Source: Halisarca cf. caerulea
Lineage: Eukaryota > Porifera > Demospongiae > Chondrillida > Halisarcidae
NCBI GenBank assembly: GCA_963170055.1
Contig: CAUJGJ010000397.1
Location: forward strand, 9,420,301 to 9,484,300
Length of the DNA: 64,000 nt
Direction of reading: 5' to 3'
How positions within the stretch are numbered: the stretch's first letter is position 1; every line of letters begins with the position of its first letter. The notes beneath the pieces were generated by a model. The model was not told where the DNA came from. It saw only the letters and a list, made by a program, of their open reading frames with translations, and did not search any database. Shown here piece by piece: positions 12,058 through 63,278 of the stretch. The translations under genes were made by a program, and so were the position numbers.

Positions 12058-12064
12058 TATAAAA
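12058..12064 (+). promoter_or_regulatory. Probable TATA box of the piggyBac-1 transposase
   Basis: TATAAAA lies 90 bp upstream of the transposase ATG at 12154, in a sensible core-promoter position. No experimental support is available from sequence alone. Confidence 0.45.
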
Positions 12065-13930
12065 GCGTCGAACGAATCGTTTCTATATCTTATTCTCTGA
12101 ATGACAGAACATCCAAAACTTTGTTTCTGAACGAAATTGTCTAGTACGGAATCATGTCAGCCAGACCGGTAAGAATTTGAACGCTATACAAAGCTATGAA
12201 ACTGCCAAACTGTTTATTATAATTACCACACTTCTAATACAGAAAAGAAATGTGGCTTCAAGGTTTAGTATGGATGAAATCATAAGTCAAATGCAAAATG
12301 ATGATGATGACTGGCTAATCTCTGATGATGATGACTACTTTGGAGATGAAGGGACCACCGAGGCTGTAACATCTGGCAATGACTTGGATCCTTTGGAGCA
12401 GGTACAGACAGAGGATGATGACAGTACATCTGCAACTGACCAGGACATGACATCAGAATTTTCAATACTCCTGCCTTCAACATCTGTTGTAGAGTCACAA
12501 CCCCAGCAGGAAGAAGTTGAACCTGGTGTCTCCTCCCATGCACCATTCCAGTTGGCTGGTTTCAATGAAGATGTAGGTCCTGTTAAGCCTCTTGGTAGTG
12601 AAGCCACTCCTTTGCTCTATTTCTCACAAATTTTTGGGGAGGATACATTAGATCACATTGCTCAGCAGACAAATCTGTATGCCCAGCAGAATCCACCCGG
12701 CGAATCATACAAGTGGACACCAACATGTGCAGATGAGATCAAGCTCTTCATTGGAATGTTGTTGGTAATGGGAATCCACAGACTGCCTGAAGTATCTGAT
12801 TACTGGTCAAAAAATCCTCTCCTTGGTGTTTCGAGCATTAGTAAGTGCATGCCCATCCTGCGTTTCAAATCCCTACTTCGCTGCTTACATCTCAACGACA
12901 ATAGCACAGCAGCAAGACGCGGTGAAGAAGGCTATGACAAACTGCACAAGATCCGTCCACTACTTGACACAGTCCGCCAGAACAGTCTGAACATGTATCG
13001 GCCTCATTAACAAAATTCAATTGATGAAGCAATGGTACTGTTCAAAGGCAGGATAGGATTCAAACAGTACATGCCAAACAAACCTGTGAAACGTGGCTAC
13101 AAAGTGTGGATGAGAGCAGATGCCACAAACGGATATTGCTGCAATTTCGAGATCTATACAGGAGCACTTCAGGATTCAGTTGAGCATGGATTAGGTGCAA
13201 CTGTAGTTAAACGCATGGTTCACCCTCTGGGTGGAAAGGGCTACCATGTATTAATGCCTTGCCTCTTCCGTCCATATAAAATGAGCCCTTCGATATACCA
13301 ACCAATCTATATCTATCCTAACTTGGTACCCTACAAGGGTGATCACTTAGTGAACCCCTTTTTGGACTTAAGGGGGGGTGCAGGGCAACCCCCAGGTGCT
13401 TCCCTGCCCCGCCCACAAAGGTATAATATAGTACCTGACATCCGGTGTCAGAGTGCACGTGCACAGTAGCTTCCCCCTGACCTATAAAGCTGTATATGAT
13501 ATACTTTGCACCTGGGGGTCAACACCCACCCCAATTATGACTTATGAACCCCAGGTCAAACTTGTTCTTAAAACAATTATATTAATTTGACTATCTCTTT
13601 GATTAATTAATATATAGCTCTTTATATCTGTTTAATACCTGTACATGCATGCGTCAGGCATCTAGAACGATTGCACATTTTCGTGCGTAAATGCTTGCAT
13701 TACGACCACGTTGGGTGCCCATTGGCCAGACACAGCATTTATAAATGCCTCGATCAGCATCGCCGCCAACATGTTACCTCCTCCGCCATAATTATAGGAC
13801 AACATTGAACACAAAAATTCTACATATTATTAATATTCATAATACTCAATATGGAATCTCATTACTACCCCATATAACATCATTCAACAAGCAGCCCCCG
13901 AAAACCTAATGATGCCCCGCCGCCCTGAGA

Positions 13931-15001
13931 CTACTGGCCGGGTGCTTCTGGCGTCGAGAAGCTGCTAGCGAGCTGCCTTGACACATGAGCCAAGTCAACA
14001 TCCGTGGGGCGGATATATCGTTGATATGCTTGGCTCTTCCAACGACCCAAAACCTTGATAGTGGACTCTGGAACCATTGCCACGCTGGCTGACGTGGCTG
14101 CCCCAATACGGAAGCTGTGTCCATTAAAATTAAGGGATGGCAGCCCTGAGGCAGCTAAGGCAGCCTGCACGTGCTGCACAAAACCTGATCGCCGGAGCGG
14201 ACGTCCACCTTCTGCCATAAACAGGGGACCCGGGTTTTCTCCTCTTACTGTCAAGATATCCAGCAGAGCCGCCACTGGGCAGACTGCCGACCCTGTTGCA
14301 CCCAAGATAACTTCTGCTCCTGCCCCAAACTGGTCCGTTTTAGAGCGCTTCACATTGACAACAAAGAACCAAGGAGCAGACTCCTTTGACAGTGCGATGT
14401 CTGACACCGAGAGATGGCAATTTGGGTCAAAGTCCCCTTGGTCTGGCATCAGGAACTCTGAACATCGCAAAAAGCCAAAAAAGGCTGTGCAGCAAGCAGC
14501 CCAAACCATGCGGTTTGTGTAGGATGCTGCGTCTGTTGATAGCTGAGACTTTATGCACTGCATTAGGGATGCTGTTATAGGCACCCGGCGCCTGGAACTG
14601 TCGGGGTTGACCTGCAACCGTTTGATCCCGCGCAGCAGGATTTTCATGTGGGGTGTGAGAAATGTTGGGGAGGAACAAGTGGGGTCTGCCAATACTCGAA
14701 AATAACGCAAGGCTGCAAGATAGGATTCTATAGTGGAGACAGAGAGGCCCTCTGACCCAAGGTAAGCCACGAACAGGGTTACCTTCTCCTGTGTCACTAT
14801 GGTGGCTGTGCAGGCTAACAGCCGAGTAAAGGCCATGTATCGGGACCAGCCGGTTCGGTATACTCTTCGAGTGGAGTCTGCCAGCCCTGCATCCAGAAAG
14901 CGGAAAACTTGCGCCTCCAGCTGACTGACGTCCAACTGGCTGGTTCCTGGCATAGAAGATCGATGAGAGGTTGTGGAACCTGAGTGGGGGAGGTGGAACA
15001 T
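13931..15001 (-). CDS. Tyrosine recombinase (DIRS-type integrase), 356 aa
   Basis: A complete open frame. It contains FFGFLRCSEF (first catalytic Arg), the box NGHSFRIGAATSAS (His-x-x-Arg), the GRWKSQAYQRYIR segment with the nucleophilic Tyr, and the LLDILTVRG region between them. These are the conserved residues of phage-integrase-type recombinases as found in DIRS and Crypton elements. The N-terminal SAM-like region (about residues 25-120) precedes the catalytic part. The frame overlaps the RT ORF by 187 bp in another phase, a common DIRS arrangement. It would join the circular or linear cDNA to the genome. All catalytic residues are present. Confidence 0.9.
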   Translation of the reverse strand: MFHLPHSGSTTSHRSSMPGTSQLDVSQLEAQVFRFLDAGLADSTRRVYRTGWSRYMAFTRLLACTATIVTQEKVTLFVAYLGSEGLSVSTIESYLAALRYFRVLADPTCSSPTFLTPHMKILLRGIKRLQVNPDSSRRRVPITASLMQCIKSQLSTDAASYTNRMVWAACCTAFFGFLRCSEFLMPDQGDFDPNCHLSVSDIALSKESAPWFFVVNVKRSKTDQFGAGAEVILGATGSAVCPVAALLDILTVRGENPGPLFMAEGGRPLRRSGFVQHVQAALAASGLPSLNFNGHSFRIGAATSASVAMVPESTIKVLGRWKSQAYQRYIRPTDVDLAHVSRQLASSFSTPEAPGQ

Positions 15002-16662
15002 GACGAGAACTGATTGAAAAATGCAGTAGCCCTGCCCCTAGAAAGGTGATCCGCCCCTATGTTATCTACTCCGGCAATGTGCGAAGCCCTGAGGCAGAAG
15101 TCGAATTTGGCTTGGAATAGGGCAATGCACCGCAACATATTACAGGCCTGGGAGTCCTGTGCGTGGAGTGAGTTTAATTGTGCTACAACTGCCATGTTGT
15201 CTGAGTGGCACATGACCAGCTTCCCTGCCCACCGTGGGCCCCAAACCGCCAGAGCCAGAGTGACTGGGACCAACTCTTTCAGGGCAATAGATGAGAGGAC
15301 TGTGCCTTGAGGCCAGGGCACTTGAAACCAGCAAGGTGACGCCCACGCCCCGCAACCCCAGGACCCGGAAGCATCTGTAAAAAGGTGCACATTAGGGCTA
15401 CCAAGTGCCAAGAACTGCTGGGATGAAACGCCTGGCCAGCCTTGAAGCAGGGCCTGCCACCAAGCTATGTCCGCTCGAACAGCCTGGTTCAACCGCCAGA
15501 ACCCCCCTGGCCTTGCGGATCGAAGAGCATGAAACAAGCCGCTGAGAAACGCCTTCCCCAGAGGGCAGACTTTGGTTGCATGAACCAAATGCCCCACCAG
15601 AGACTCCAGGGTATTGATATCCCGGATGCACTTAGAATCTACCAGGTTGCTCAGCATAGACTGCAGCTGAACCTGCTTTGGAGCTGGGAGGGACACCCTC
15701 ATTGGCAACGAGTGGAGCTGAATACCTAGAAAGGTAATGGAGTGCGTGGGGCCCTCCACCTTGTCAGCTGCTAGCGGAATACCCAAGTCTTGACACACAG
15801 AGACTGCGGTTGCCAGGCACTGGGAGCACTCCTGGGACCCTGGAGCCCCCAAGAACAAAAAGTCATCCAAGTAGTGGATTACTGCCCGTATACCTGCTTC
15901 ACGGAGAATCCATTCCAAGGCCTCCGCTATTGCGTTAAAAATGGCTGGGGTCGACGCTAACCCGAAGGGTAGCTGACTGTCCACATAGACTTGGTTGTCC
16001 CAACACACTCCCAGGAACCTTCTTTCATTAGGGTGAATGGGTACAATTCTATAAGCGTCCTTAATATCTATCTTAGCCATCAGAGCGCCCGGACCCAGGG
16101 CATTCAGCACGAGGGCTGCGTCATCCACTGACGCATATGCCACATGCGTCCACTCGCGGTGTAGCTGGTCATTGACTGACGAACAAGCCGGGCTGGACAG
16201 GTCTACGATGACCCTGTATTTGCCCGGAGTGCTCTTGGGAACTACTCCAATGCTATTGACAGTAACCCCCTGGCAACAAGCTGGGTCCAGTGGTCCTATC
16301 ATATGGCCTTCCTGCACCTGCTGATGGATATAATCAGCCACCACTTGTGAATGTAACCCCGCTGATGGACGGTTTGAAGATGACGATTGGCAGACTGCAT
16401 TTGGGTGTAAGCCCAGGTGGAACCCACTCCGAATACCCACTATCAGATTCCTAACCCACTCCCTGTCTGGGTGGGTGGCCAATGCCTGCTGCCATGCCTG
16501 CACTTTCAGGGGAGTAAAGACAGGTTGGGAAGCAATGTGAGTGAGCGTGGGGGAGCCATGGGGCTTGGAAAGGGCTATCGACTGGAGGCGACAGAACTGC
16601 CTTGCCAGTAACCTGGAGGTTGCAGCTGATGCAGATGAGGGCAATGGCTGACCTGTGGGCAA
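14815..16662 (-). CDS. DIRS-like reverse transcriptase-RNase H, 615 aa
   Basis: An unbroken frame. RT motifs include VPKSTPGKYRVIVDLSSP, MAKIDIKDAYRIVPIHP, QLPFGLASTPAIFNAIAEAL and the catalytic HYLDDFLFLG. An RNase H-like segment follows with HLFTDASGSWGCGAWA and later SDNMAVVAQLN. This order and style match DIRS/Ngaro-class RTs rather than gypsy. The frame ends inside the recombinase ORF, so translation of the two probably depends on a frameshift or re-initiation. The stated start is the first ATG. An earlier non-ATG start is possible. Confidence 0.9.
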   Translation of the reverse strand: MPTGQPLPSSASAATSRLLARQFCRLQSIALSKPHGSPTLTHIASQPVFTPLKVQAWQQALATHPDREWVRNLIVGIRSGFHLGLHPNAVCQSSSSNRPSAGLHSQVVADYIHQQVQEGHMIGPLDPACCQGVTVNSIGVVPKSTPGKYRVIVDLSSPACSSVNDQLHREWTHVAYASVDDAALVLNALGPGALMAKIDIKDAYRIVPIHPNERRFLGVCWDNQVYVDSQLPFGLASTPAIFNAIAEALEWILREAGIRAVIHYLDDFLFLGAPGSQECSQCLATAVSVCQDLGIPLAADKVEGPTHSITFLGIQLHSLPMRVSLPAPKQVQLQSMLSNLVDSKCIRDINTLESLVGHLVHATKVCPLGKAFLSGLFHALRSARPGGFWRLNQAVRADIAWWQALLQGWPGVSSQQFLALGSPNVHLFTDASGSWGCGAWASPCWFQVPWPQGTVLSSIALKELVPVTLALAVWGPRWAGKLVMCHSDNMAVVAQLNSLHAQDSQACNMLRCIALFQAKFDFCLRASHIAGVDNIGADHLSRGRATAFFNQFSSCSTSPTQVPQPLIDLLCQEPASWTSVSWRRKFSAFWMQGWQTPLEEYTEPAGPDTWPLLGC

Positions 16663-16936
16663 AATGGTATAGAACTCGTGGAACCTGTTACCCTCCTAAT
16701 GCTATACAGTACTATACCACGTCTAGGGTAGAGGCGTGACTGGCACTCCAAGTCATGCATGCTGGATCCCTATATATCCCCGGAATCCCTATATGCCCCA
16801 CTCTTAATGACCATGCGACACTGGAATGATTGAATATAATATGTGCAACACAAAGTCAAAGGTAAAGCAGCAGCAATAAAATGGGTTCAGACCAACTCAA
16901 AAAGTGCAGCAACCTGCCACTTGGCCGCCTTGGCTG

Positions 16937-18759
16937 CTAACGAGGCCCTCTCGGGAGGGCACGTCTGGCCACCACAAGTGGGCACTCGCGCGCTGCGTGG
17001 CTGCCTGACCGACATATTCCACAGATGTGGCGGTACCTGCAGTAAGGCAGGATGCACTCGCCTCTGCTGAACCGGCGACAGATCTCTGGTTCCGGGTCTG
17101 TACCCTGGGGCCTGGACCCACTGGCCAGTGTAAGGGGCACCCGTGGGCGCTCCACGGTGGCCGCGAGCCATATATCGGGCTCACGGCGATCCCAGGCTAG
17201 AGCCGGGTTGGCCGCTGTTGCTTGGCGGAATAGTCGGTCGTAGCGTTGCCAGACCTGGCCTGGCACATCCCTAGCCAGCAGTGCGATGATAGACATGTAG
17301 GTGGCCAATGGGCGGCCTTTGCCAGGATCAAAGTGGACCGCAACCGCCATATACGTTGAAAAGGCGTACATCCAGTCCACTACCGAAGAGATTGGAAACT
17401 TCTTCTGCTTTTCGGATGGCTTTTCCTCAGTTGAGCGATCAAATGCCTGCTCAAGAGCCTCGGGAAGTAGCTCGCCCAGGTCTACAAAGTTACCATCCAC
17501 TATCCTCTTAACTATGGAGGCAGGGATCCCCATTAACCCTGTGGATGGCAATTTTAAATTCAGGACATTGGCCCCGGTACTAGCTGGTGTTGTACTGGTC
17601 ACTGCTGTCGCAGCCACTGGGGAGGCGGAAGTGGATGCCACTGGTGGCTGAGATGGTAACACCTGAGTAGTGTGCCCTGCAGGAGGCCATGTAGTGACTG
17701 CCGGGGGCTGGCCAGACAACGTGCCCTGCAACACAGCTGTAGCAGGGAAGGGATAAAACTGGAGTCAACTATAAGTAATGTGCCCTGATAGGGGCTTCAT
17801 GCCTGGGTGCCCACCTGCATGGACCTAGGCCTAATCCCCTACCCCCGTTTCCTGGATGAGAAGATAACTGCAGGCTGCTACTGAAGATCCCCGTTACTCT
17901 ATGGGCAGGTGTGAACTATGTCCTATACGTACAAGGCCCTTCCCGCATGTATGTCTATATATATAAATTATGTCAAAGGCGTTGAGTGTCAGCCTACGCC
18001 GCTGGGCAAAATGAAAGTTGGACGAGGAACCAGGGTATCCTCTGTATGGGAATTATGAGAGGGCATTCCCAGCTTTGGGACTTGCCGTGTGTACATGTGG
18101 GTGCCCCCTGGAGGGCATGCAGCCTGAGCTGCTCTCGTGAATCCTCCTGTGGGGAGGTGCATGGTGGTCGCGCAACCAGCTAACGCACAACAGCCACCTA
18201 CTGGTGGCTTTGTCATGAGCCTGTAGCAGTTGATCGCCCTTGGGGGTGGACGATGGGCTCAAGGTTGGCCTCGGAGGCCTGCCCGATGCACCTGACCTGC
18301 TTTTGACCAGCTTGTGGTCCTGGATAGGATTGCTACTACCTAATTGCACCGGCACCCCCTGGAGGGTCGTCTCAGTGACAAAAGCTAACCCCGGAGCCCA
18401 GCCTCATGGCCAGGCGAGGGTTCCGGCGATGAACCAAGCTGATGGTCGTGGGACCGCTCGTGGGGCCTGCCCGCTCCCCGATTGATAATGCTCGCCCTAT
18501 GGAAAGAAAAACTACGCAGGCAAGTCAACCGTACAGTAGTAACAATATCAGGGAAATTGTGCGAAGGGCGAGGACTGGTCCCACCTGGTCGAGTTCTACA
18601 ACTCCTCCCGAAGCCCATCCGTACCCAGCGCTTACCTGGTGGCCCAGAAGATGACGGTATGCCCGAAGGGACACTGGGAGAGGGCAGGGGTGCCTGGGAG
18701 AACGAAGGCCCAGCTGTAGATGTCGCCGAGGCGACGGAGTTAGAAACTGACTCAGCCAT
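16937..18759 (-). CDS. DIRS-like gag protein with a probable intron
   Basis: Exon 1 begins at ATG 18759 (MAESVSNSVASATSTAGPSF) and ends at a donor ACCAG|GTAAG at 18636. The acceptor is near 17725-17736 (TGCTACAG or TGTTGCAG). The second exon covers residues beginning QGTLSGQPPAV and runs to 16937. It contains FPISSVVDWMYAFSTYMAV, a conserved gag-like helix, and a C-terminal Cys/His cluster (CRRFSRGECILPYCRYRHICGICRSGSHAARECP) able to bind nucleic acid. The exon pairing is my inference from splice consensus and continuous composition. The intron of about 900 bp overlaps possible promoter sequence. Confidence 0.65.
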
Positions 18760-20272
18760 AGAGTACGATAACTGGAACGGAGAAAAATAATCGAGGAATC
18801 GACCGCAGGACGAGAAATAAAACCATATATAGCAGTCACAACTGAACCAAGGGAGGCTAATTCCTGCAACCGTGATCCAATATACGATGCCGCGCTGTAC
18901 ACGTTTTCTCAACTGCGCATGCACACTAACATGCTGGTCTTTCACTGCCACCAGCTTGTACCCATGCACCTAGATAAGCGCTGCGGGGCTACAGATACAG
19001 GCATTAACCCCATTCAACTCCGTTAAATTCCATTTTTACGATAATTTCTTTTCCAGCGTACAACTGGCACAGGATCTCCTACAAGACAAAGTGTACACAA
19101 TTGGTACCACACGCATCAACAGGAAAAACTGGCCAAATTGCCTGAAAGCCATGAAGGAATTACAAAAGACAATGGTACGTGGTGATTCCAAGTCGGAAGT
19201 GGTTCAGGGAGGTACTGTGGAATGTCTCGTATGGAAGGACAATCGATGTGTACCATTCATAAACACCATTAGTCCACCTGGCCAAGAAGAGACCATTCAG
19301 AGAAGGGCAAAAGATGGTTCAAGACAAAGTATCAAATGTCCATCCTCTGTCAAACAATATAATCAATACATGGGCGGAGTGGATATAGCAGATGCCAGAA
19401 GAAAGAGCTACAGTTGTAGTAGAAAGTCCAAGAGGTGGTGGATGCGCTTATTCTATTTTCTCGTCGATATCTTGGTTGTCAATTCATACATTATTGCACA
19501 AGAGTCTCCGCTTTGTCCAAAAATGTCCTCCAAAGAGTTCATTCTATTTATTTCTGAAGATCTCATGGCCGGATACAACTCGAGAAAGGGTCCTGGGCCT
19601 ACAAGTGATGTATCTCCATCTTTTCGCTTCTGTGAACGACATTTTCCATCGAAAAGCGACAAATACCGAGTGTGTCGGTACTGCAGCAACAGCGGCCAGC
19701 GAATTTGCACTTGTTTTTGTTGCGAAGACTGTAGTCAGACTAATCCTGTTCATCTGTGTCCTTATCCGTGCTTTAGATTGTACCACACTAAGTAATTTCA
19801 CGTACGGTAGCCATTTTCCATTACGTAATATCTTGTTATTTCTTGTTATTTTGTGTATTTCTTTGCATAATTATCCGTATACTCTTGTATAACATAAAAA
19901 TATATTCCTTTATATTGTGAGAAGTACAGAACGTACAGCGCTCTTATTGTATTAAATGTCATATGTCTGTCATACTATTTAACACATCAGCAAAGAACCT
20001 ATAATAATCCGTCGCCATATATAATTATGAACGGTAAGGGGTACAGCCAGATATCTGGCCTAAAAACGGTAAAGGGTTAAAAAAACTCGTGGGCCGCCTA
20101 CGGCCCTGGAAACTCGAATCGCTTGGAAATCGGCTTTATTGACTAAAATAATATTTCGAAGAACTCTTCGGGTCTAAAAGACCCTTCGCTGATAAAATCA
20201 GGAGCAAATGAATGAATTTCACCGAAATATAGCCGAAAGATTTTGTACCGACTTTGCATCCGCCATGTTGTT

Positions 20273-20313
<41 letters not shown>

Positions 20314-20370
20314 ACATCGTTCCGGACGTTCTGGACACTTCTGGTGAAAGTAAAAACAATATGGAAAAAA

Positions 20371-20519: not shown

Positions 20520-20527
20520 AAGTGAAG

Positions 20528-20586
<59 letters not shown>

Positions 20587-20793
20587 TATGGACACGCATA
20601 CACATAAATTCACCAGTTTACACACATATACACACACAAACAGTAAACATGCATAATGACATTGCATTGATTCACAAGCACAATAATGCTATCAAACTCA
20701 CTATTCTTTCCATTTAGGATTTCATTTATTCTTCCTGTGCACATAGAGAAGCATGGTAGAACACAATAATTCCAGAAACCGGCACACACACAC

Positions 20794-20839
<46 letters not shown>

Positions 20840-20993
20840 ACACACACACACACACATACACACGCAAACACACACATTGTATAATTGTACACCACTACAC
20901 AGAACCACGCATTGTTCAGGGATCTTTCAATTCCGTGAGGATTATTTCCAAGTGATTCGAGTTTCCAGGGCTGTAGACAGCCCATGAGTTTTT
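20520..20993 (-). mobile_element. B-prime element: hairpin terminus with a microsatellite-flanked core
   Basis: Read on the minus strand, a family B terminal hairpin (outer AAACTCGAATCACTTGG, inner GGGCTGT-CT-ACAGCCC at about 20966-20982) is followed by an 80-bp spacer, (GT)n, a core of about 130 bp (20655-20785) and another (GT)n (20529-20582). The same order occurs in B5 at 58078-58480. The outermost bases of the hairpin are missing because A2 inserted in its T-run at 20993. The other end of the element was not found. Confidence 0.65.
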
Positions 20994-21240
20994 AGGGGCT
21001 GCCTGCGGCAGCCCCTATATTGTTTTCATTTGGACTTTCAGTGTGTAACGCTCATCCGATATATATACATATATATATAAAATATAAATTTGAAGAAAAG
21101 TCTTATAATGAAGAATTTATATAATAGTAATAGAGAAGTATGAATTTATACAGGAATGAGTTATAGGAATTGTTTTGAAAACAACTGCCAAATATGGCAA
21201 TTGTTTTCGAAACAATCATCCAGTTACAATAAACAGTATG
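20994..21240 (-). mobile_element. A2: family A element truncated at one end
   Basis: It starts AGGGGCTGCC-TGCGGCAGCCCCT right after a T-run inside the B-prime hairpin. It contains the shared 3' block, a short TA-rich core and the central palindrome, and it breaks off at AAACAGTATG (21240). The CAAG terminus is missing. Confidence 0.85.
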
Positions 21241-26200: not shown

Positions 26201-26265
26201 AGGGGCTGCTGCAGGCAGCCCCTATATTGTTTTCATTTGGACTTCCGGTGTGTAACGCTCGTCCG

Positions 26266-26296
<31 letters not shown>

Positions 26297-26435
26297 GGAT
26301 TTGAAGAAAAGTCTTATAATAGAGAATTTATATAATAGTAATAGAGAAGTATGAATTTATACAGGAATGAGTTATAGGAATTGTTTTGAAAACAATTGCC
26401 AAATATGGCAATTGTTTTCAAAACAATCGTCCAGT
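26201..26435 (-). mobile_element. A3: family A element truncated at one end
   Basis: It starts AGGGGCTGCTGCAGGCAGCCCCT after ATATTT and contains the CGGTGTGTAACGCTCGTCCG block, (TA)n and the central palindrome. It breaks at CGTCCAGT, exactly where the foldback element E begins. Confidence 0.85.
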
Positions 26436-36203: not shown

Positions 36204-37022
36204 AAGGGTGTATAAAAACCATTTAAAAATGGTAAAAGGATGTAGGATTGACACAGGATCATGCAAAAAGCCATTATCAAAAAAGGATTCTCCAAAAACA
36301 CTTGGAACAAGGGTAAGTTGCAAAACCAGTACAGGGCTAGGTGGGCAAAGGGCAAGGCAGGCATAGGGCATAATAGCACACATAATAACAGGCATAATTG
36401 CACACTGTGCAATTTCCTACACCCCGCAGCACATATGTACTGTATAATGTAATGTGCTGCACATGCGGGATGTAGGAATTTGCACAGTGTGCACTCAGTC
36501 CCACTAAACTCTGCCTAACCCTATACCCGTCTAGCCTCATGTATGTGTAGCCCATGCTTGTCTAGCCCTATGCCTGTCTTGCCCTTTGCCCACCTAGCCA
36601 TGTACCGGTTTTGCAACTTACCCTTGGACCAAGTGTTTTTGGAGAACCCTATATTGTTCTCATTTGGACTTTCGGTGTGTAACGCTACGGATTTGAAGAA
36701 AAGTCTTATGATAGAGAATTTATATAATAGTAATAGAGAAGTATGAATTTATACAGGAATGAGTTATAGGAATTGTTTTGAAAACAACTGCCAAATATGG
36801 CAATTGTTTTCCAAACAATCGTCCAGTTACAATAAACAGTATGTTCAATGAATGTTCAGCTGTGCACTTACACTCCAATGCTTTGCAAGTGATTCGAGTG
36901 CGTGGGGCGGCAGGCCCCACGCGTTTTTAACTCAAATTACTTGTTTGATAATGGCTTTTTGCACGATTCTGTGTCAATCCTACATCCTTTTACCATTTTT
37001 CAATGGTTTTTATACATCCTTT
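36204..37022. mobile_element. P: long palindromic (foldback) element, interrupted by A4
   Basis: The left arm (36204 to about 36430) and right arm (about 36445-36646 plus 36944-37022) are near-complementary. Matching blocks include GGTGTATAAAAACC, GGTAAAAGGATGTAGGATTG and AAGGGTAAGTTGCAAAACC. The centre also folds (GCACACTGTGC). Almost the whole element is one hairpin with arms over 200 bp. No ORF. Confidence 0.8.
36648..36943 (-). mobile_element. A4: family A element in the right arm of P, truncated at its 3' terminal hairpin
   Basis: It begins within CCTATATTGTTCTCATTTGG, so the AGGGGCTGCC hairpin is missing, as is the (TA)n core. It then has the central palindrome and ends in the other terminus (GTGGGGCGGCAGGCCCCAC ... 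AATTACTTG). The left arm of P shows the original site: ATCAAAAAAGGATTC. The element sits in that A6 run. Confidence 0.85.
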
Positions 37023-40011: not shown

Positions 40012-40054
40012 GGGCCACAGGCGGCCCATGAGTTTTTTAAACTCAAATCACTTG
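40012..40054 (-). mobile_element. B6: solitary family B terminal hairpin
   Basis: GGGCCACAGGCGGCCC followed by GAGTTTTTTAAACTCAAATC and ACTTG is the family B left terminus on the minus strand. The outer stem's other half is absent. It abuts the end of the RTE-like LINE. From 40055 to about 40270 nothing is recognised. Confidence 0.7.
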
Positions 40055-42736: not shown

Positions 42737-42799
42737 AGGGGCTGCCGCAGGCAGCCCCTATATTGTTTTCATTTGGACTTCCGGTGTGTAACGCTCGTC

Positions 42800-42844
<45 letters not shown>

Positions 42845-43099
42845 GGATTTGAAGAAAAGTCTTATAATAGAGAATTTATATAATAGTAATAGAGAAGTAT
42901 GAATTTATACGGAAATGAGTTATAGGAATTGTTTTGAAAACAATTGCCAAATATGGCAATTGTTTTCAAAACAATTGTCCAGTTACAATAAACAGTATGT
43001 TTAATGAATGTTCAGCTGTGCACTTACCCTCCAATGCTTTGCAAGTGATTCGAGTGCGTGGGGCGGCAGCCCCCACGAGTTTTTAACTCGAATTACTAG
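42737..43099 (-). mobile_element. A5: complete family A element inside piggyBac-2
   Basis: A T6 run is followed by AGGGGCTGCCGCAGGCAGCCCCT. The element then has the shared block, a (TA)n of about 38 bp, the central palindrome, and the nested terminal hairpin ending AATTACTAG. One base differs from the usual ACTTG end. Confidence 0.9.
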
Positions 43100-46912: not shown

Positions 46913-48066
46913 CCTTTTAACGCCCGCATTTTTATGTCATCATTTACCCCTTAAGGCTGATTAGCCTAAAAAGTGGCGCAAGCTTTGCGAAACGATTTTT
47001 TGTATTTACAAAGAGCGTGAACGTTGCCAAATGTTATATTTCGGTTATATCTTATCTCAAAGATCTTCTCCAGCAAAAAGCTTCCCTTCGCTAACCAACA
47101 AAGTGAAATTCGTATGCATTTTACTCACACACTTACTCGTCAGTTTGAATAGTAGCATTTAGCTACGTAACGCCTTTTTTGGGCCTGCTTTGCATAGAAA
47201 ATGGTCACAATTGTCTTTACATATTCTACTGCATACTATTATATGCCTAGAAAACCGTTACAATGCAAATTGTTACACTAACAAGTAATTCGAGTTAAAA
47301 ACTCGTGGGGGCTGCCGCCCCACGCACTCGAATCACTTGCAAAGCATTGGAGGGTAAGTGCACAGCTGAACATTCATTAAACATACTGTTTATTGTAACT
47401 GGACGATTGTTTTGAAAACAATTGCCATATTTGGCAATTGTTTTCAAAACAATTCCTATAACTCATTTCTGTATAAATTCATACTTCTCTATAACTATTA
47501 TATAAATTCTCTATTATAAGACTTTTCTTCAAATCCATATTATATATATATATCGGACGAGTGTTACACACCGGAAGTCCAAATGAAAACAATATAGGGG
47601 CTGCCTGCGGCAGCCCCTAAAAACAATAACAGTGCAAAATCTACACGGAGACACGTCGGACGAACTTTATTGCGAATCTTGCTGTCCAGAACGGCGTATT
47701 ACTCTTCGTCCAGTGGACTGTTTAAGGATTTACTGCAGGTAGCTCCTATTCAGCCGAAAAAACAGACTACACAACCAATGAATATTACCGATCTTCAAGC
47801 AGCCATTTTACTTGTTTGTATATCTTTGTAAACTGTTTGTATAATTGCGTGACTTTATGATCACTTGTGTTTTTAGTACAATCTTTAGAGCTTTCTGTAC
47901 TGTTTATAGCTAAGGGTATGGCGTTAAAAATTGGCAGTTTTATTAAGCTTCCTTCACTCTATCTAGTCATATAAATTTCTTCGTGATTGCGCAATATAGG
48001 CAACCCGCGGGACTTAATGATATTCAGAGTTTAGAGCCACTAAATAGGCTAACGGGCCTCAAGAGG
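46913..48066. mobile_element. piggyBac-like non-autonomous element, TTAA-flanked, containing A6
   Basis: TTAA occurs at 46909-46912 and 48067-48070. The ends are CCTTTTAACGCCCG and (inverse) CCTCTTGAGGCCCG. A subterminal TAGCCTA(A/T)(A/T)(A/T)AGTGGC is shared. D1 and D3 show the uninterrupted site (GCAATCAAGAACCATTC). No transposase. Confidence 0.8.
47282..47618 (+). mobile_element. A6: complete family A element, 337 bp
   Basis: It starts CAAGTAATTCGAGTT after TAA. The nested hairpin GTGGGG-GCTGCC-GCCCCAC is followed by the central palindrome, a short (TA)n and ACTTTCCGG-like block, and the 3' hairpin AGGGGCTGCC-TGC-GGCAGCCCCT (47596-47618). AAAAAC follows. Confidence 0.9.
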
Positions 48067-48612
48067 TTAAGAGCCATTTGCGCAAAGGTATTCACACAAA
48101 TTCCACGAAATTGGTATCTGAAGCCTAGGTACTTCACTAAAGTATCCAAACAATAACAGAATCATATGATAATATCAAGAGTTACCCTATTAATAGTGAT
48201 GGTGAGAGGATTTTACAATAAAATAATACGAAGATCAATTAAAATGACTATAACTCACCCATAATCGTTTGCAAACAAAGATCATTTAATCAGAATCAAA
48301 AAACATTAGTGTCCAACTTCCTTCACTGAGAAAAACTAAAAACAAGTAATTCGAATTAAAAACTCGTGGGGGCTGCCGCCCCACGCACTCGAATCACTTG
48401 CAAAGCATTGGAGAATAAGTGCACAGCTGAACATTCATTGAACATACTGTTTATTGTAACTGGACAATTGTTTTGAAAACAATTGCCATATTTGGCAATT
48501 GTTTTCAAAACAATTCCTATAACTCATTTCTGTATAAATTCATACTTCTCTATTACTATTATATAAATTCTCTATTATAAGACTTTTCTTCAAATCCATA
48601 TTATATATATAT

Positions 48613-51486
48613 CAGGGTTTCTTTCAGGAAATATGTCAAGGAGGGCAAAATTCAGTTATGAAGAATATATGGGGGGCAAGTCAAGAAGCATACTATGATA
48701 TAGAATGTGGAGCGATGCTGTGATATAGAACATTGATGTCGTATGTACATTATGTATGATGGGAAATCTTGTAGACAATGCAGCTGCATGCTATATAGAA
48801 AGATTTTATAGAATCCACTTAAGAACATTTGTGACCTCTATGTTCCCTCTACAGGCAGCTGTATGTAATTGTCACCTCCATGCATGATTCACAAAATTAA
48901 GATGACAGGAAATTAGTCTCTATCCCATGCTACTGTGTGGAAGAAACAACAGAGACACAATTTCCTGTAATGGATGGATTATAAGGCAGTAGCACAAGCC
49001 TGCTACTAGTTGTAGTTATAGTTGGCGGTGAATCAGAGACAAGGTGTTCATGTATGGATATCCGTTCTTTCTTGAGTGCAAGTTCTTCGAAGTCATCAGC
49101 ATCAATTTGCAGTGATAGTGGAGATGAATCAGGAAATTCTGAAAGTGAGCACTTAGAAATAAGCCCTGCTAAAAAGCTGTGCACCAGTTCCACTTCTGAC
49201 AACTTGAAGGAATGCTATGACAAATCCCGTTCACATTCAAGTGAGCGGAAATACAACAAGAAATGGGAAGAGGAATTTAGTTGGCTAGAATATGATGAAG
49301 ATTACCAAGGAGCTTTTTGTAAGATCTGCAGGAAACGGGGAAGTGGCGGAACGTGGATTACTAAGCCATTTACCAATTGGAAGAAGGCAACAGAAAAGAT
49401 GAGGGCCCACGCAAAAAGTGGCATACATATTCAATCTTGTGAAGTGGAGCTATTAACAGCCAGAGCACAGGTAGATGGATCTATTATCCAACAACTACAA
49501 CATGCAGGTGATAAAGAGAAGAAGAAGAACCAGTTGGCAATCAAAGCCCTTCTACGTTGCACCCACTTCCTTACTCGACAACACATAGCTCATACAACTA
49601 ACTTCGGGGAACTAGTTGATTTAATAGTTAAATGCAGTGGTGAAGATCTCAAACAGTTCATTGAAAGTGCTGGTAGGAATACTATGTACACATCAAAAGA
49701 TTCTGTTGTAGAATTTGTAGAAGCAATAGGCCTATGGGTGGAAGAAGCTCTCGTAAAACGTATCCAGCAAGCTCCTTTCTATAGCCTGATGGCAGATGAG
49801 TGCACAGACATCTCAACTGTGGAGGAGCTATCCATCTTTTGTCGTTGGGTTGAAGATGGAGTGCCCGTAGAGCACTTCTTAGAGATTGTTCGTCTGAAGA
49901 AAGCTGATGCCAAGACTATTTATTCTTCTCTGGTAGATTGCTTGAAGCAAAAGAAAATACAGCTTGGCAAGATTGTGGGAATGGGATTTGATGGAGCAGC
50001 AACATTTTCTGGGAAGAAGACTGGAGTTCAGAGTCTGCTGAAGAAACATTCTCCTCATGCCATTTTTGTACACTGTCATTGTCATCTGCTTCAGCTTGCC
50101 TGTGTTCAAGCTGCTAATCGTACAACAGGGATAAAACACATGTATACAACTTTGTCTACTTTATGGAAATTCTTTCACTATTCTCCGAAGCGTACAGAAG
50201 GTTTGAAGGAGATACAACGTGTCCTTAATCTCCCTGAACTCAAAATTATCAAGCCCTCGGACACAAGATGGTTATCACATGAACGTTGCGTTAAAGCAGT
50301 GAAGCAAAACTACTGTGCAATAGTGGTTGCTCTCAATAACATCTATGAACAGACACATGAACCCGAAGCCCTGGGTATTAGCAAAGTTCTCTGTAAGCAA
50401 TCTTCTGTGTCAGCCATTTATCTGTTGGACTACATTCTACCACAGGTGGCAAAGCTGAGTAAGGGCTTACAAACAGTAAAACTTGATTTAGCTGTTGTTT
50501 CTGGATTAGTGGAGTCCACCCTTTATTCACTTGGTGATGCTTTGTTGCCCGAAGCAAATTGGGTACTGGAGTTGCTTGATGAGTGTGAACAACTAAAAGA
50601 AGCTACTGGGATCAGCATGGCCATGGCAAATATCACTTCTTTTCAAGAAACTGTTGCTAAGCCATTTGTTATTGACTTGAAAGACAATATTGCCAGTCGT
50701 TTTTCTTCACAAGACATTATCTCTTCATTTACTATTTTCAATCCCAAGAAGGTACCAACTACAGCCTCTGATGATTTACTATCTTATGGTGAGGAAGCTG
50801 TGAAGTTACTGATAAGTCATTATGGAGTCGACAAGCAAGCTGAGACAATACAGGGTGAAGAATGTGTAAAGCCATCCATGATTTCATCTGAAATACACAC
50901 AGAGTGGAAAACATTTCGACGCTATGTTTCCAAAAAGCCAGAAGAAACCATGTCCTCACAGCTTAAAGAGTTGACAAGCAATGCAATGCTTACAACCATG
51001 TTCCCAAATTTAAGCACTCTTGCCAATATCTGCCTGACCATCCCTGTTACCACTGCTGCTGTAGAAAGGAGTTTCTCACAGATGAAACTCATTAAAACAA
51101 GATTACGAAGCCGCATTGGAGAAAAAAGCCTTTCATATTTGATGAAAATTGCTATCGAGTCACCTGAAAGCCTCTCTGAAGATGACCTTGACAGTATAAT
51201 CGAAATATGGAAGAGGAAGCCTAGAAGAATAGCAGTTTAATTAACTCTATACCAATGTGTACTAAAACAGCTTATCCTAGTGTGTTTTACGTAAAACAGT
51301 GTGTATGATGCAAATGTTCATCTCAATAGATAATGATTGACTCAGTGTAATGATCCTGTTCTGAACATATTAAATATTAACATGATACCATATTTAAAAA
51401 TATTAACATTAAAAATTTTCAAGGGGGGGCAAAAAATTTCCAAGGGGGGCAAATGCCCCCCCTGCCCCCCCCTAAAAGAAACCCTG
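48613..51486 (+). mobile_element. Complete hAT transposon, 2874 bp
   Basis: The ends are CAGGGTTTCTTT and its perfect 12-bp inverse. G/C-rich subterminal runs (GGGGGGCA) lie near both ends. The flanks are (TA)n on both sides. Their phase allows only an odd-length duplication, and 5 bp (TATAT) agrees with the 5-bp TAATG of element J. One 728-aa transposase frame is intact, so this is a candidate active element. Confidence 0.9.
49054..51240 (+). CDS. hAT transposase with DUF4371-like core (ZNF862-like), 728 aa
   Basis: A single unbroken frame. Residues 1-60 are Ser/acidic. A TTF/BED-like zinc finger follows (FCKICRKRG...MRAHAKSGIH, about residues 90-130). The catalytic core has FYSLMADECTDISTVEELSIF (first Asp, about residue 245) and GMGFDGAATFSG (second Asp). 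HCHCHLLQLACVQA and SDTRWLSHE follow, the latter typical of the hAT insertion region. The C-terminus carries the hATC dimerisation motif TTAAVERSFSQMKLIKTRLR. The length fits autonomous members. In many animals the same domain set is annotated as zinc finger protein 862-like. Confidence 0.93.
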   Translation: MDIRSFLSASSSKSSASICSDSGDESGNSESEHLEISPAKKLCTSSTSDNLKECYDKSRSHSSERKYNKKWEEEFSWLEYDEDYQGAFCKICRKRGSGGTWITKPFTNWKKATEKMRAHAKSGIHIQSCEVELLTARAQVDGSIIQQLQHAGDKEKKKNQLAIKALLRCTHFLTRQHIAHTTNFGELVDLIVKCSGEDLKQFIESAGRNTMYTSKDSVVEFVEAIGLWVEEALVKRIQQAPFYSLMADECTDISTVEELSIFCRWVEDGVPVEHFLEIVRLKKADAKTIYSSLVDCLKQKKIQLGKIVGMGFDGAATFSGKKTGVQSLLKKHSPHAIFVHCHCHLLQLACVQAANRTTGIKHMYTTLSTLWKFFHYSPKRTEGLKEIQRVLNLPELKIIKPSDTRWLSHERCVKAVKQNYCAIVVALNNIYEQTHEPEALGISKVLCKQSSVSAIYLLDYILPQVAKLSKGLQTVKLDLAVVSGLVESTLYSLGDALLPEANWVLELLDECEQLKEATGISMAMANITSFQETVAKPFVIDLKDNIASRFSSQDIISSFTIFNPKKVPTTASDDLLSYGEEAVKLLISHYGVDKQAETIQGEECVKPSMISSEIHTEWKTFRRYVSKKPEETMSSQLKELTSNAMLTTMFPNLSTLANICLTIPVTTAAVERSFSQMKLIKTRLRSRIGEKSLSYLMKIAIESPESLSEDDLDSIIEIWKRKPRRIAV

Positions 51487-52214
51487 TATATATATATATA
51501 TCGGACGAGCGTTACACACCGGAAGTCCAAATGAAAACAATATAGGGGCTGCCTGCGGCAGCCCCTAAAAAAAGACGAAACAAACTTTGATATCGAAACT
51601 ATAACAGTAACATAGCAAATTTTCATGCACGCAACCAACTTGAAATGATACGTAATGTCATCAATGTCACATTAAAATGGCAGTTTTGAACTTGTTTCAA
51701 AAAGAATGTAGAATTTGCACGTCTAGATGGCCCTTCTTTGTGATGAAGACTGCAAAAACTATTTCAAAATACCCTTGTGCATTTGTTTATTCTGAGTGGA
51801 GAAAATATAACCAGGTACGCAAAAGATATAAGCATTTTCATGGCTTAATTTTCACTATTTTACAGCGGAAAAGTTTGGTTATATCTATGGCATTTGGGGT
51901 TACATATTTTCCGCTCAGAAATACCTTATGCAGCCGACTTTACTCTTCAATTTGATACTAGTTTTGCCTCTATTGAAGCACTTCTAGACGTGCGGACATC
52001 GACATTTACTGCAAAAACAGTTTTTTCTAGATTCTTATTTACTTATATTTGCATACAATATGGGGTTGTTTTCTTGGTTTAATGTTTCGACAATAAGCAT
52101 TAAAATGTGTAGAAGATTTAAAATGAGCCAGAAATTATATCTGCGAGTCAAAATCGTGATGTATTTGTCACCCCTTTTGGGCGGCAGCCATTTTTTTAGT
52201 TTTTTTAAAATCCG

Positions 52215-56950: not shown

Positions 56951-58212
56951 TACGGGTCAAATCCAGATTCGACCCATATTAAACGTTTCACGAGGACTTT
57001 GAAGTGGGTTGAACCCAGGTTAAGATAATGGTCAAACCCTGCTCGGGAGGTGGGTTTGACGCGCATAAAGTGGGTTGAACACGTTTTTCGAAATGGCAGA
57101 AAGAGGGAGAACTTGGACCGATGAAGAAGTGAAGGAACTGTTAAGTATTTGGGTAAAGGGCAGTATTCAGTGGCAATTGTTAGGTTCGGTACGAAATGCT
57201 ATTCCTTTCCGAAAGATAGCAGAGGAACTTCAAAGGAGGAAGGGCTTAGAATGAACGTACCAACAGTGCCACGAAAAGATCAAGACACTTAAAGAAAAAG
57301 TACAAAGACGCTCGTGACAGACTCAGACGGAGTGGTGTAGGAGTCGATTCTGATGATGACTTGGAAGACTATGAAATTTATGTTAATTTCAAGTGGTTTG
57401 CAGAAATCCACTGTGTTATGGGCAGGCGCGCTGTTGTTACTCCACCTGTTCTCCTTAACACTTCCAGTGTGACCAGCAACGACTGAGGAAGTAGTGTAAA
57501 TTCAACATCTGAAGGGACGTTGGACTCAGATAATCTTCTGTCACCGCCCATTACACTAGAACCACCTAATGCCCCATCCAATGTACAAGTTTCTGCTATA
57601 ATTCCCACCACTCTCACAGTTGTGAACAATGACATCGGCACAGTACCTGGTGATGCTGACACCATAACTACTACTAAACACTGGCAGTACTGCTACAGCC
57701 ACCACCACCACTTCTTCGACCACCACCAACCCTTTTCTAACCACTGGCAGTATTGCTTCAACCAGCACCATCACCCCCACTTCTCCAACCACTGGCAGTA
57801 CTGCTTCAACCACCACTACCACAACTTCTACAACCACTGGCAGCACTTCTACAACCACCACCGCCACAGTTACTACAACACCTACTATTACAAGAAGATC
57901 AATTACCTTAAACTCAAGAGACAAAGAGCAACCTGGGCCATCAAAGAAGTGCAAAACTACAAAAATGGAAAAGGTGGAGAAATCAAGTACAGCCATGATA
58001 AATCTTTTACTGTCAAGCCAAGCAGAAGCCAGGAAGGAGATACTGCAATTGGAGAAAAAAGAATGGAACAAGAAGAACAAGTGATTTGAGTTTAAAAAAC
58101 TCGTGGGCCACCTACAGCCCTGGAAACTCGAATCACTTGGAAATCATCCCGAAAGATCCCGGGCCTGAGATATAATGCATGGTTTTGTGTAGACTAAGTG
58201 TTGTATGACAAA

Positions 58213-58229
58213 ATGTGTGTGTGTGTGTC

Positions 58230-58300
<71 letters not shown>

Positions 58301-58445
58301 CAGTTTCTGGAATTATTATGTTCTATTGTGCTCCTTGTTCACATGAAGACTAAATGAAATCCCAAATGGAAAGGATGGTGAGTTTAATAGCATTATTGTG
58401 CTTGTGAATTAATGCATTCATGAATGTGTGTGTATGTGTGTGTGC

Positions 58446-58480
<35 letters not shown>
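58213..58480. repeat. (GT)n arrays around a 120-bp core (H) shared with 20655-20785
   Basis: Two GT arrays (about 58217-58298 and 58424-58480) enclose CAGTTTCTGGAATTATTATG through GCATTATTGTGCTTGTGAAT. The same core in reverse orientation, with GT/CA on both sides, lies at 20655-20785. Confidence 0.85.
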
Positions 58481-58481
<1 letters not shown>

Positions 58482-59523
58482 CAGTACAGGATAGACTCTT
58501 TCAGAAGGACAACAACTACACCTACTGGTCAGAAGCGGTTTCTTCTCTCCCTGATCGGGAGATGAAATTCGCTTACAATGCAGCAGTTGACACCCTCCCA
58601 ACCAACGCCAACCTAGCCCTTTGGTACAAGGGGTAGGTTTCAGCTAGCTGCAAGCTCTGCCACTTTCCATCCCAGTCTCTAAAACATATCTTGAACAAAT
58701 GTGAAGTAGCCCTCCAGCATCGTAGATTCAACCCTCGCCATGATGCTGTGCTGTCCTCTCTTCACACATTCCTCGCCAGCCATACCACCCTCAACATCAT
58801 TGCTGATCTCCCAGGAGTCAACTAGAGCTTCCCCTCCCACATAGCCTCTACTGATGAGCATCCTGATCTTGTCCTATGGAATGATAAGGCTCGTTCTGTC
58901 TTCCTGATCGAACTGACCATCCCGTTCGAGGATAATTTTGCAGATGCCCATCGCTGCAAGTCCAACCGTTATCACAACCTTCTACAGCTATGTAAATGGA
59001 ACAGCTACCGAGCAAGGCTCCACACCATCCAAGTTGGCTCCAGGGGAATTGTTGATATCGACTCTGTGCGATTTCACGTGGACCTCTGCAAGCCTAAGCA
59101 GAGAGACTGGCACAAGTTTCTGGTTGAGCTTTCCAGAGTTGCCATCATTGGCTCCTGTGCTGTTTGGTGCAGTAGAAACAAGCCATAGATGCTCTTATTG
59201 TTATTTCTGAATTTGCTCTATATAGCTATTTCTGTTATGACCTATGTACGTGCTTTCTTGGTAATGCTTTTCAGAGTTTTAGATCTAGCTAGCTCATTAC
59301 TGTATTCCTACAGTTTCGTTTTCACACACACCAGAATGTATACTTGTCTTTTGAGTCATTAGAACACTGTGTTGTACTCCACCCTGACACAACTGTACCA
59401 TGTTTTCGTAAAGCATGTTGGCAGTGTGTTCTTATAGCATGACTCCTTCACCATCATCTTACTTTAACTATAATCTTTGTACTGATCTCAGTTTGTCATT
59501 AATGATGATGAAGTTGAAAAAAA
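58481..59523 (+). pseudogene. 3' fragment of a LINE with restriction-like endonuclease
   Basis: Translation gives KLCHFPSQSLKHILNKCEVAL (a CxxC...HxxxC zinc-binding cluster), then HPDLVLWNDKARSVFLIELTIPFE, the PD-x-ELT signature of the restriction-like endonuclease at the C-terminus of R2-type LINEs. ARLHTIQVGSRGIVDID follows. Stops occur at 58634-58636 and 58822-58824, and the frame ends at 59187. The 3' part ends in GATGATGAAGTTG and an A8 tail at about 59523, next to (GT)n. The 5' part is missing. Confidence 0.8.
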
Positions 59524-60560
59524 AGTGTGTGTGTGTGTGTGTGTGTGTGTGAGGGCATTTCTTATGTTACACTCTTTCTCTCCCTACAGAATACAAAATA
59601 AGCCTTACGAAGAAATTCAACTGACTTGTGGTAGGTACAATTGCTATTGATTGTTTTATGACAGATTCATTTATTTATTAAGCAACATCGGCTCCAAAAG
59701 GAATGATGATGAAGAAAGCAAGAGAGGAGGATCCTGTCTCCAATGAGACCTCCTTGTCCTCCACCTCGTGCTTGTGTATACCCTTGTATTCCCAAAGTTA
59801 GTACTAGTACATACACCACACATATATACTGGTGAAATGTCATTATTATGTTTTTTCTTTTCCCCATGTAGGAAACAGTAAGCAAACAGCAGCTGCACTA
59901 GGCCTGCTAAACTGTTTTCACTAACAGTTCATTTACTGCTTTAATAATATATTTATTATATAGATATGTGCATATAATTATACTCATCAAATATTTATCA
60001 CTTTAATTTTTAATAATTATAATGAAACATATCACATTACTGCTGCAATATGAATTAAACATAATACAATAATTAAAATATAATTCAATAGTCAACGTAC
60101 TACAAATGCTCACAAACATTCATCATATTTAAGTTGGAATCTTCATTTCAATGCACCTTCACTTCCTGTGTTACTAATTCCTGTGAAGGAAAACAAAATT
60201 TAGTGAAAGTAGGTACATGTACCCTAAACACCATGCATATGCACACATATTTTCACATCATATACACACATCACATATTCAGTACAAGAACCAACGGACA
60301 CATGCTAAAATTGCATAGACAAACACACACACACACATACTGATACACACACAATGAAAAACATAAATTTACAGAGGTATATCTACTCACAATATTATAC
60401 ACACATCTAACACTAACCATGTGCACAAACATGAATTTACAAGGGTATATGTACACACATACATATACCTCACACATGACCTGGTATGCGTGAAAGCGTG
60501 AGATAAGGCCTGTATGTGTGAGTCTCACGCATAATGCATGAGAGTTGGCATGTCTGCATA
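59524..60560. other. AT-rich unassigned stretch with CA/GT repeats
   Basis: A GT run lies at about 59525-59551 and scattered CACACA/CATACA at 60240-60475. No supported ORF. Confidence 0.5.
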
Positions 60561-61457
60561 GATATAACCAAAAATGTACTGTTCAGCTGTAAAATAGTAA
60601 AAATTAAACTATAAAAATGCTTATATCTTTTGTGTACCTGGTTATATTTTCTCCGCTCAGAATAAACAAATGCACAAGGGTACTTAGAAATAGTTTTTGC
60701 AGTCTCCGTCGCAAATAAGGGCCATCTAGACGTGCGGATTCTACATTCTTTTTGAAACAAGTTTAAAGCCGCCATTTTAATGTGACATCATTGATGACGT
60801 TACGTATCATTCCATAATGGTCGCACGCATGAAAATTTGCTATGCTACTGTTATAGTTTCGATATCAAAGTTAGTTTCGTCGTTTTGTTTAGTTTTTCTC
60901 AGCGAAGGAAGTTGGACACTAATTCTTTGATTCTGATTAATCGATCTTTGTTTGCGAACGATTATGGGTAAGTTACAGTCGTTTTTGACTGATCTTCATA
61001 TTATTTCATTGTAAATCCTCTCACCATCATTATTAATAGGGTAACTCTTGATATTATCATATGATTCTGATATTGTTTGGATACTTTAGTGAAATACCTA
61101 GGCTTCATATACCAATTTCAGGGATTTTGTGTGAAAACCTTTGCACGAATGGTTCTTGATTGCTACTTTTGTGTACGCAAATTGTCAATATGTAGTATTT
61201 GATACTTTTAATCACCGTATCCGTCCTTTAAAAGTTTTAAAATAACGGATTTGGTGGCGCAAAAGTTCGAATCATAACTCCCGCAATATGCAAACATTTC
61301 CCGCTACAGACAGAGATTGTGCAACTTGTGATGACAAATGTGACGTTTTTCTAAGAGGTAGTCGTGACGTGTATGATAAAAGTGACAAATTCCCTACATT
61401 CCAATACTTTGTCACCTAAAATCCCCACATTCTGAAATATGCTATAATGGCCCTGTG
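60561..61457 (-). mobile_element. D3: CACTA-like element, one end missing
   Basis: On the minus strand it starts CACAGGGCCATTATAGCATA (61457) and follows D2 through GCAATCAAGAACCATTC and GAAAAACTAAACAAAACG, the pre-insertion sites of the two elements nested in D2. It continues to GGTTATATCTATG and stops near 60561 without the right terminus. Confidence 0.8.
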
Positions 61458-62019
61458 CACTTCCGGTGAAAGTAAAAACAATATAGGGGCCACCTTTGGC
61501 GGCCCAAAAACTGGTTAAAGTGGAGAATGAAAGAAACAATCAGTTTATGATGTTCATGAAAGATATGTTCATCATGATGCTCCAGGGGCCACCATTAACA
61601 CCGCCATCTGCTGGCACAATATATTATCCACCCGGACCTGTGTTTCTACCTACTCCCATGTATGCAACACCTGAAATTAACACCTCCACAAGCAATGTTA
61701 ACCCAACTTTTACACTAAGTACTCGTGGCAGCCAATCTATTGACCCGCCACATGATGAGTCATGAGCAAGCTGTTTGACTTTTGAAACTTCAAACCCCTG
61801 ATCTGTTGCTATAGTTATTAACCTTTAGCTACAATTATTACATGATTGCATTGCTATGTTATAACCCTTTAGCCAACCAGCTGCAGATGTTGAAGTTATG
61901 TATGTACATGACGATACATACAAAACAATGATCATTGTAGTAGTGCTGATCATAGTGGTACTGTACACAATTTACGGAAGTATACAGTCATGCAGTGTTT
62001 AAATACATTTTTAAATTTA

Positions 62020-62973: not shown

Positions 62974-63005
62974 CTTTCACCGGAAGTGTCCGGAATGTCC
63001 GGAAT

Positions 63006-63055
<50 letters not shown>

Positions 63056-63278
63056 CAGTATATATGTCAACAACATGGCGGACGCAAAGTCGGTACTTAA
63101 TCTTTCGGCTATATTTCGGTAAAATTCATTCATTTGCTCCTGATTTTATCAGCGAAGAGTCTTTTCGACCAGAAGAGTTTTTCGAAGTATTATTTTAGTC
63201 AATAACAATGATTTCCAAGTGATTCGACTTTCCAGGGCCGTAGGCGGCCCACGAGTTTTTTTAAACTCGAATCGCTTG
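62974..63278 (-). mobile_element. B3: family B element, 3' terminus missing
   Basis: On the minus strand it begins CAAGCGATTCGAGTTT at 63278 with the nested hairpin (inner GGGCCGCCTACGGCCC). It passes through TTTGCGTCCGCCATGTTGTT and (TA)n, here extended by a (GA/CT)n run at 63008-63040, and stops at CCGGTGAAAG near 62974. From 62850 to 62973 nothing is recognised. Confidence 0.85.

Follow-up and report, generated by a model that had tools for sequence, protein, structure and literature searches.

We propose that elements A and B, two families of hairpin-ended repeats, are non-autonomous rolling-circle transposons of the Helentron/Helitron2 type (HINEs), and that they are moved by the Rep-helicases of larger elements that have the same ends and reside in the same genome. 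We hold this reading with high confidence. It is based on four observations: both ends of B are those of H2, a family that encodes a Rep-helicase with an OTU domain (Rep-Hel-OTU); the 3' end of A is that of a second Rep family, H5; the Rep proteins carry Helentron-type residues; and the empty sites are T-runs. The features are collected in Table 1, in which the window is the whole stretch of 64,000 nucleotides that was analysed.

Results

Elements A and B are abundant and end in folded structures

With the copy at 47282-47618 as the query, the first look gave 1470 candidates for element A, and all 40 that were scored extend from position 1 or 2 to position 337 with 94-100% identity. An exact search with AAAACAATATAGGGGCNGCC, a motif of the GC-hairpin end, gave 697 matches, against 0 for its reversed control. 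The B query (8073-8394) gave 1392 candidates, of which 40 were scored; the non-self ones are 77-92% identical and some are less than full length. In both elements, one end is a GC hairpin and the other is a folded structure of 58-62 nt. Against 200 shuffles each, the 3' structures of both types (A, z -5.5; B, z -9.6) and the A 5' hairpin folded better than all of them, and the H2 5' hairpin better than 199. These results confirm the initial annotation, made from the letters of the window, in its claim of a hairpin-ended family with many copies, and we agree with it that a long terminal inverted repeat is absent.

Two of its generalizations hold in part. Full copies do generally start with CAAG, 42737-43099 (CTAG) being an exception, and hairpins at both ends are present in some copies only. 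The CAAG end is missing from 20994-21240 and 26201-26435, all or half of the GC hairpin from 36648-36943, 8073-8390 and 11793-20370, and the GC-hairpin end from 62974-63278, while 20520-20993 stops within its 3' structure and 40012-40054 is a fragment.

Inside A, at 47406-47453 of the window, there is also a perfect 22-bp inverted repeat with a 4-nt loop.

Table 1. Copies of elements A and B, nested transposons and related Rep-encoding elements. Positions are those of the window unless a scaffold or locus is named.
Feature	Position	Strand	Remarks
Element A, full copy (HINE)	47282..47618	-	5' to 3' in the Rep sense is 47618 to 47282
3' terminal branched structure of that copy	47282..47339	-	Ends CTTG; 57/59 bp as the end of the H5 Rep element
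5' GC hairpin of that copy	47596..47618	-	AGGGGCTGCCGCAGGCAGCCCCT
T5 at the 5' boundary of that copy	47619..47623	-	AAAAA on the + strand
A-type 5' end sequence			TTTTTAGGGGCTGCC...CCCCTATATTGTTTTC
Element A, full copy	9755..10111	+	
Element A	20994..21240	+	Without 3' (CAAG) end; adjoins the T-run of a B 3' structure
Element A	26201..26435	+	Without 3' (CAAG) end
Element A	36648..36943	+	5' GC hairpin gone
Element A, full copy	42737..43099	+	Terminus CTAG instead of CTTG
Element A, split	48343..51566	-	Split by the hAT transposon (48613-51486)
Element B	8073..8390	-	Second half of the 5' hairpin gone
Element B, split	11793..20370	-	Split by piggyBac; without 5' hairpin
B-type 3' part	20520..20993	+	Cut inside its own 3' structure at the start of an A element
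B-type 3' end fragment	40012..40054	+	
Longer derivative with H2-type ends	58078..61505	-	Interior mostly other DNA
Element B	62974..63278	+	Without 5' hairpin
Nested hAT	48613..51486	+	Foreign to A; ORF 49054-51240 (Dimer_Tnp_hAT, DUF4371)
Nested piggyBac (DDE_Tnp_1_7)	11811..20076	.	Foreign to B; CCCTT termini, TTAA on both sides
H5 copies	C369 near 826038, 1150110, 1175612		
H2 frame with 2A-like motifs	L059:6316 to L060:3500		

H2 shares both of its ends with element B

The Helitron_like_N domain has 119 matches genome-wide; these are rows, and some Reps are spread over two of them. Within one Rep family, H2, two copies align over 10.9 kb at 98.9% and both stop at CAAGTGATTCGAGTTTCCAGGGCCGTAGGCGGCCCACGAGTTTTTTAAACTCGAATCACTTG, which is intact in one of them and altered in its last few bases in the other. 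This 3' end is the reverse complement of the reported start of B. Thus the CAAG structure, which had been taken as the start of the elements, is their 3' end; in the Rep sense, the elements begin with (TT)GGGCC or (TT)AGGGG and end with CTTG. The H2 3' end was found in 7 of 10 further copies, followed by TT in six and by TC in one; the stretches taken for the other three are nearly all N in two cases and have no visible 3' end in the third. The H2 5' end, TTTTTGGGCCGCCAAAGG(C/T)GGCCCCTATATTGTTTTTAC, was read in two copies and equals the other end of B. One H2 copy (C369:6758694-6776420) carries both ends; it is 17,727 bp long, runs from 6776420 to 6758694, and its interior was read in part. 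For B, the search that the initial annotation had proposed thereby led to larger elements with the same termini, from a family that encodes a Rep and a helicase. In the B copies that were tested, the sequence corresponds to two pieces of H2, roughly its first 200 bp with the TA repeat and its last ~70 bp, which is the pattern expected of deletion derivatives.

In one copy, the H2 frame has 2394 codons from the called start and contains DUF6570, Helitron_like_N (8e-32), PIF1 (4e-29) and OTU (4e-10) domains. Its protein has the motif FWRVEFQLRGSPHIH and, further on, YICSY, which we take to be the two-tyrosine motif. The H2 protein gave a weak match to Helraiser in the PDB (E 0.013). The sequence FWR(V/I)EFQLRGSPHIH is present in 20 of 20 H2 loci, and the full motif was unmatched at 10 other Rep loci. 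The serine of RGSPHxH by itself is not exclusive to this family, as another Rep (L017) reads RFEWQHRGSPHVH (RGSPHVH) without FWR. Before the Rep domain, H2 has two motifs that we identify as 2A-like, GDVELNPGP and GDVERNPGP, each preceded by a leucine-rich stretch (frame residues 103 and 239). Neither the long frame nor two further frames that were scanned yielded an endonuclease.

H5 shares the 3' end of element A

We searched for A-type 3' ends preceded by DNA that is foreign to A. The exact pattern had no such match; allowing at most two mismatches gave four, three of which are beside H5 Reps, at distances of 3,999, 6,358 and 4,001 bases from where the Rep begins. The fourth (L093) is an A copy joined directly to the 5' part of another A. 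All three H5 copies read have a common upstream stretch of 120 bp, then the A-type structure, and then TT followed by unrelated DNA. In the one H5 3' stretch that was compared with A (L088), the last 59 bp match at 96.6% (57/59) and nothing matches beyond them, so that an origin of A as a deletion derivative is unsupported. The one H5 Rep read has the motif FWRIEFQLRGSPHVH / FFWRIEFQLRGSPHVH, with the Helentron-type FxR and the S in RGSPHxH. The pairing of A with H5 is thus made through the 3' end only, this being the side covered in the three H5 copies, and the part of the H5 protein that was read is the Rep domain. One 7-kb stretch of the Rep family H1 and one 3.5-kb stretch of the family H3 contained no A-type end.

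Two side observations concern these stretches. L088:1-1440 contains a DUF7869 ORF that stops ~430 bp before the H5 3' end, and L087 (C379:5000-12000) contains inverted pairs of a 23-nt and a 47-nt hairpin, as if the 12-kb contig partly folds back.

The 3' end can close as a single branched stem

A palindromic core, GGGCCGCC, is present at both ends of B and H2, and a palindromic repeat, GGGGCTGCC / GGCAGCCCC, is present at both ends of A. At the 3' end, an extra arm of 14-16 bp pairs the terminal nucleotides and turns the whole end into one branched stem. We analysed this outer stem in an alignment of 32 of 43 distinct ends, comprising 14 of 14 A ends and 18 of 29 B-type ends (only those 62 nt long). 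Paired cells amount to 96.0%, compared with 18-43% when the stem is slid; for pairing as well as for the covariation score, 1 of 500 shuffles came up to the observed value. Changes on both sides occur in only 1 of 14 pairs, a count that 474 of 500 shuffles reach. The covariation support for the outer stem is therefore mixed.

Relation to known rolling-circle elements

Strictly defined Helentrons have an AP endonuclease fused to the Rep-Hel. As none was found in the H2 frames scanned, H2 is not a Helentron in that sense. It fits Helitron2, which in the portion of PMC5148889 available to us is described with asymmetric terminal inverted repeats, hairpins at both ends, insertion beside TTTT and an endonuclease-free Rep-Hel, all of which are found here; unlike that description, the H2 frame adds an OTU domain and 2A-like motifs.

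A and B also resemble the HINEs and Helentrons (DINE-1-like) of Thomas et al. (PMC4067079), as far as the accessible part of that paper describes them. The shared features are a palindromic repeat that occurs at the 5' end and recurs near the 3' terminus, a microsatellite, a T-run target, here with at least TT beside most of the ends measured, HINEs that are deletion derivatives, as B appears to be, the Rep residues FWR...RGSPHxH, and OTU proteins. In the same account, FxR and RGSPHxH separate Helentrons from Helitrons. Unlike the Helentrons described there, H2 has a Rep-Hel without a detected fused endonuclease, its OTU domain is in the same frame, and the further arm of 14-16 bp pairs the terminal nucleotides into one branched stem. 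The 3' palindromic core of B is ~27 nt from the 3' terminus, compared with the 38-60 bp given for mite HINEs in the available text. With canonical Helitrons (Helitron1; Helraiser), the elements share an HUH Rep with a PIF1 helicase and a 3' hairpin near the terminus; however, A and B have no 5'-TC, no 3'-CTRR and no A^T site, and instead have a 5' hairpin and a T-run target.

Thus, A and B belong to the Helentron/Helitron2 kind, with HINE anatomy, as set out in the parts of PMC4067079 and PMC5148889 that we could consult; the initial annotation had suggested an undescribed system. It had also placed A and B as non-autonomous members of one HUH system. The HUH Rep-helicase and rolling-circle part of that claim stands, but two different Rep families are involved: the ends that are shared with an element encoding a Rep (HUH) and PIF1 are both ends of B, with H2, and the 3' end of A, with H5. 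The branched 3' end with its outer arm has no match among the descriptions of Helentron ends at hand, and might be taken as the mark of a separate undescribed HUH system (Replitron-like or IS200/IS605-like) that uses these ends. The Rep-Hel elements also end in this branched structure, which makes a second system unnecessary, and we consider such a system very improbable.

Within the Helentron/Helitron2 reading, the outer arm that closes the 3' end, the OTU domain without a found endonuclease and the two 2A-like motifs are possible new details, to which the concentration of Rep matches on one scaffold (C369, see below) may be added. We did not meet the first three in those parts of the literature on Helentrons, Helitron2, HINEs and the Helitrons of sponges (Porifera) to which we had access, which does not prove their absence from print; the accessible literature on Helitrons with 2A-like or OTU sequences likewise had no mention of '2A-like'.

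The hAT and piggyBac transposons are nested

The copies 48343-51566 and 11793-20370 had been listed among the members of the family. We found that the former is an A with a nested hAT and the latter a B with a nested piggyBac. The hAT ends, CAGGGTTTCTTT...AAAGAAACCCTG, lie within the TA repeat of A, and its 8-bp duplication is ambiguous because of this position. The piggyBac has the termini TTAACCCTT and AAGGGTTAA, lies between TTAA copies at 11807-11810 and 20077-20080, and itself contains reverse-transcriptase and recombinase-like ORFs.

As both transposases sit between A or B ends in the window, A and B could be thought to be MITEs of these DDE transposons. This candidate was rejected, since each of the two transposons ends within A or B in termini of its own, and the piggyBac is flanked by TTAA duplicates. 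Terminal inverted repeats of the hAT and piggyBac families are absent from the ends of A and B. In addition, the ends of B belong to Rep-Hel elements, a long terminal inverted repeat is lacking, and the three clean sites described below gain two T only. We therefore regard a MITE origin as exceedingly unlikely. The initial annotation had set autonomous DDE copies with true terminal repeats against its own reading; the DDE transposons seen here are guests with their own termini.

Insertion into T-runs

Empty sites, from Helitron copies, were found for three A insertions and one B insertion, and the T-run was present beforehand in all four. The three A sites are clean. In the Rep sense and with [A] as the element, GTTTTTA became GTTTTT[A]TTA, GTTTTTTTA became GTTTTT[A]TTTTA, and ATTTTTG became ATTTTT[A]TTA, the last with a change in the adjacent base. 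Each gains exactly two T, which is compatible with either a TT carried by the element or a duplication of TT; the same poly-T ambiguity is described in the available part of Thomas et al. (PMC4067079). The three clean sites are most simply explained by an element that has TT as its first and CTTG as its last nucleotides and that inserts behind the third T of the run (TTT^TT). The B site (L032) is altered nearby and gains at least three T. We left it out of this count, together with the paralogue of 48343-51566 at 60820-60935.

On the 5' side, exactly T5 was found at 15 of 19 measured A ends and 12 of 18 measured B-type ends; two A and seven B-type rows were unmeasurable and three rows were unclassified. 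On the 3' side, at least TT follows all 20 A-type ends and 35 of the 41 B-type ends. A and B are almost certainly not short retroposons, for which the AAAAA after the GC hairpin on the strand first read could be a poly(A) tail and the truncation of some copies at the CAAG end would be fitting, since the run is already in all four empty sites and both B ends are common to DNA elements encoding a Rep-Hel.

Head-to-tail copies also exist, at L039 (C98:60800-62050) and L093 (C345:2922100-2922500), and such copies are reported for other Helitrons in the literature within our reach. At these junctions, CTTG is followed by T5 or T6, and the 5' hairpin is missing; the model of a TT-bearing element and a T-run predicts neither. 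We considered that the L039 tandem arose by insertion into a T5 inside B and rejected this, as it predicts two T and the junctions show five and six.

The flanks of the interrupted A copy 48343-51566 recur without the insertion at 60820-60935, inside 58078-61505, as an altered empty site.

Model and implications

We propose a model for the movement of A and B that is drawn from these sequences. The Rep of H2 or H5, acting through its HUH/tyrosine site, would nick beside the 5' hairpin. The helicase would then displace a single strand as far as the branched structure of the 3' end, which would end copying. Last, the displaced strand, perhaps as a circle, would be joined into a T-run.

A further possibility, which we put forward tentatively and think doubtful, is that these elements form a distinct sub-lineage of Helitron2. 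Such a sub-lineage would combine three characters. The first is a switchable 3' terminator, in which the last 14-16 nt pair either with a distant upstream arm, giving one branched stem, or partly with a near CGAGTT copy, giving a small hairpin. The second is a single TTT^TT insertion rule that rebuilds the 5' T5, and the third is an OTU-bearing, endonuclease-free Rep-Hel.

With the assignment of A and B to the Helentron/Helitron2 type, an abundant and easily misread repeat now has a class. One genome offers gene-less elements, Rep-encoding partners and clean empty sites together. Thus the choice of T-runs and the recognition of ends by Helentrons, which Thomas et al. left open with the poly-T ambiguity, become testable here.

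Other content of the window and its scaffold

Within the piggyBac, window positions 13931-16662 hold an RVT_1 ORF next to one that weakly matches Phage_int_SAM_1, a pair that presumably resembles a DIRS-type element. At 621-3479, there is a 952-codon ORF that, judged by eye, is like a retrotransposon polyprotein with reverse transcriptase and integrase. The scaffold that contains the window, C369, makes up 14.16 Mb of 194.5 Mb. It has 95 of the 119 Helitron_like_N rows and, among the scored copies, 31 of 40 for A but only 5 of 40 for B. C369 may be an unusual chromosome, or else repeats gathered into one scaffold.
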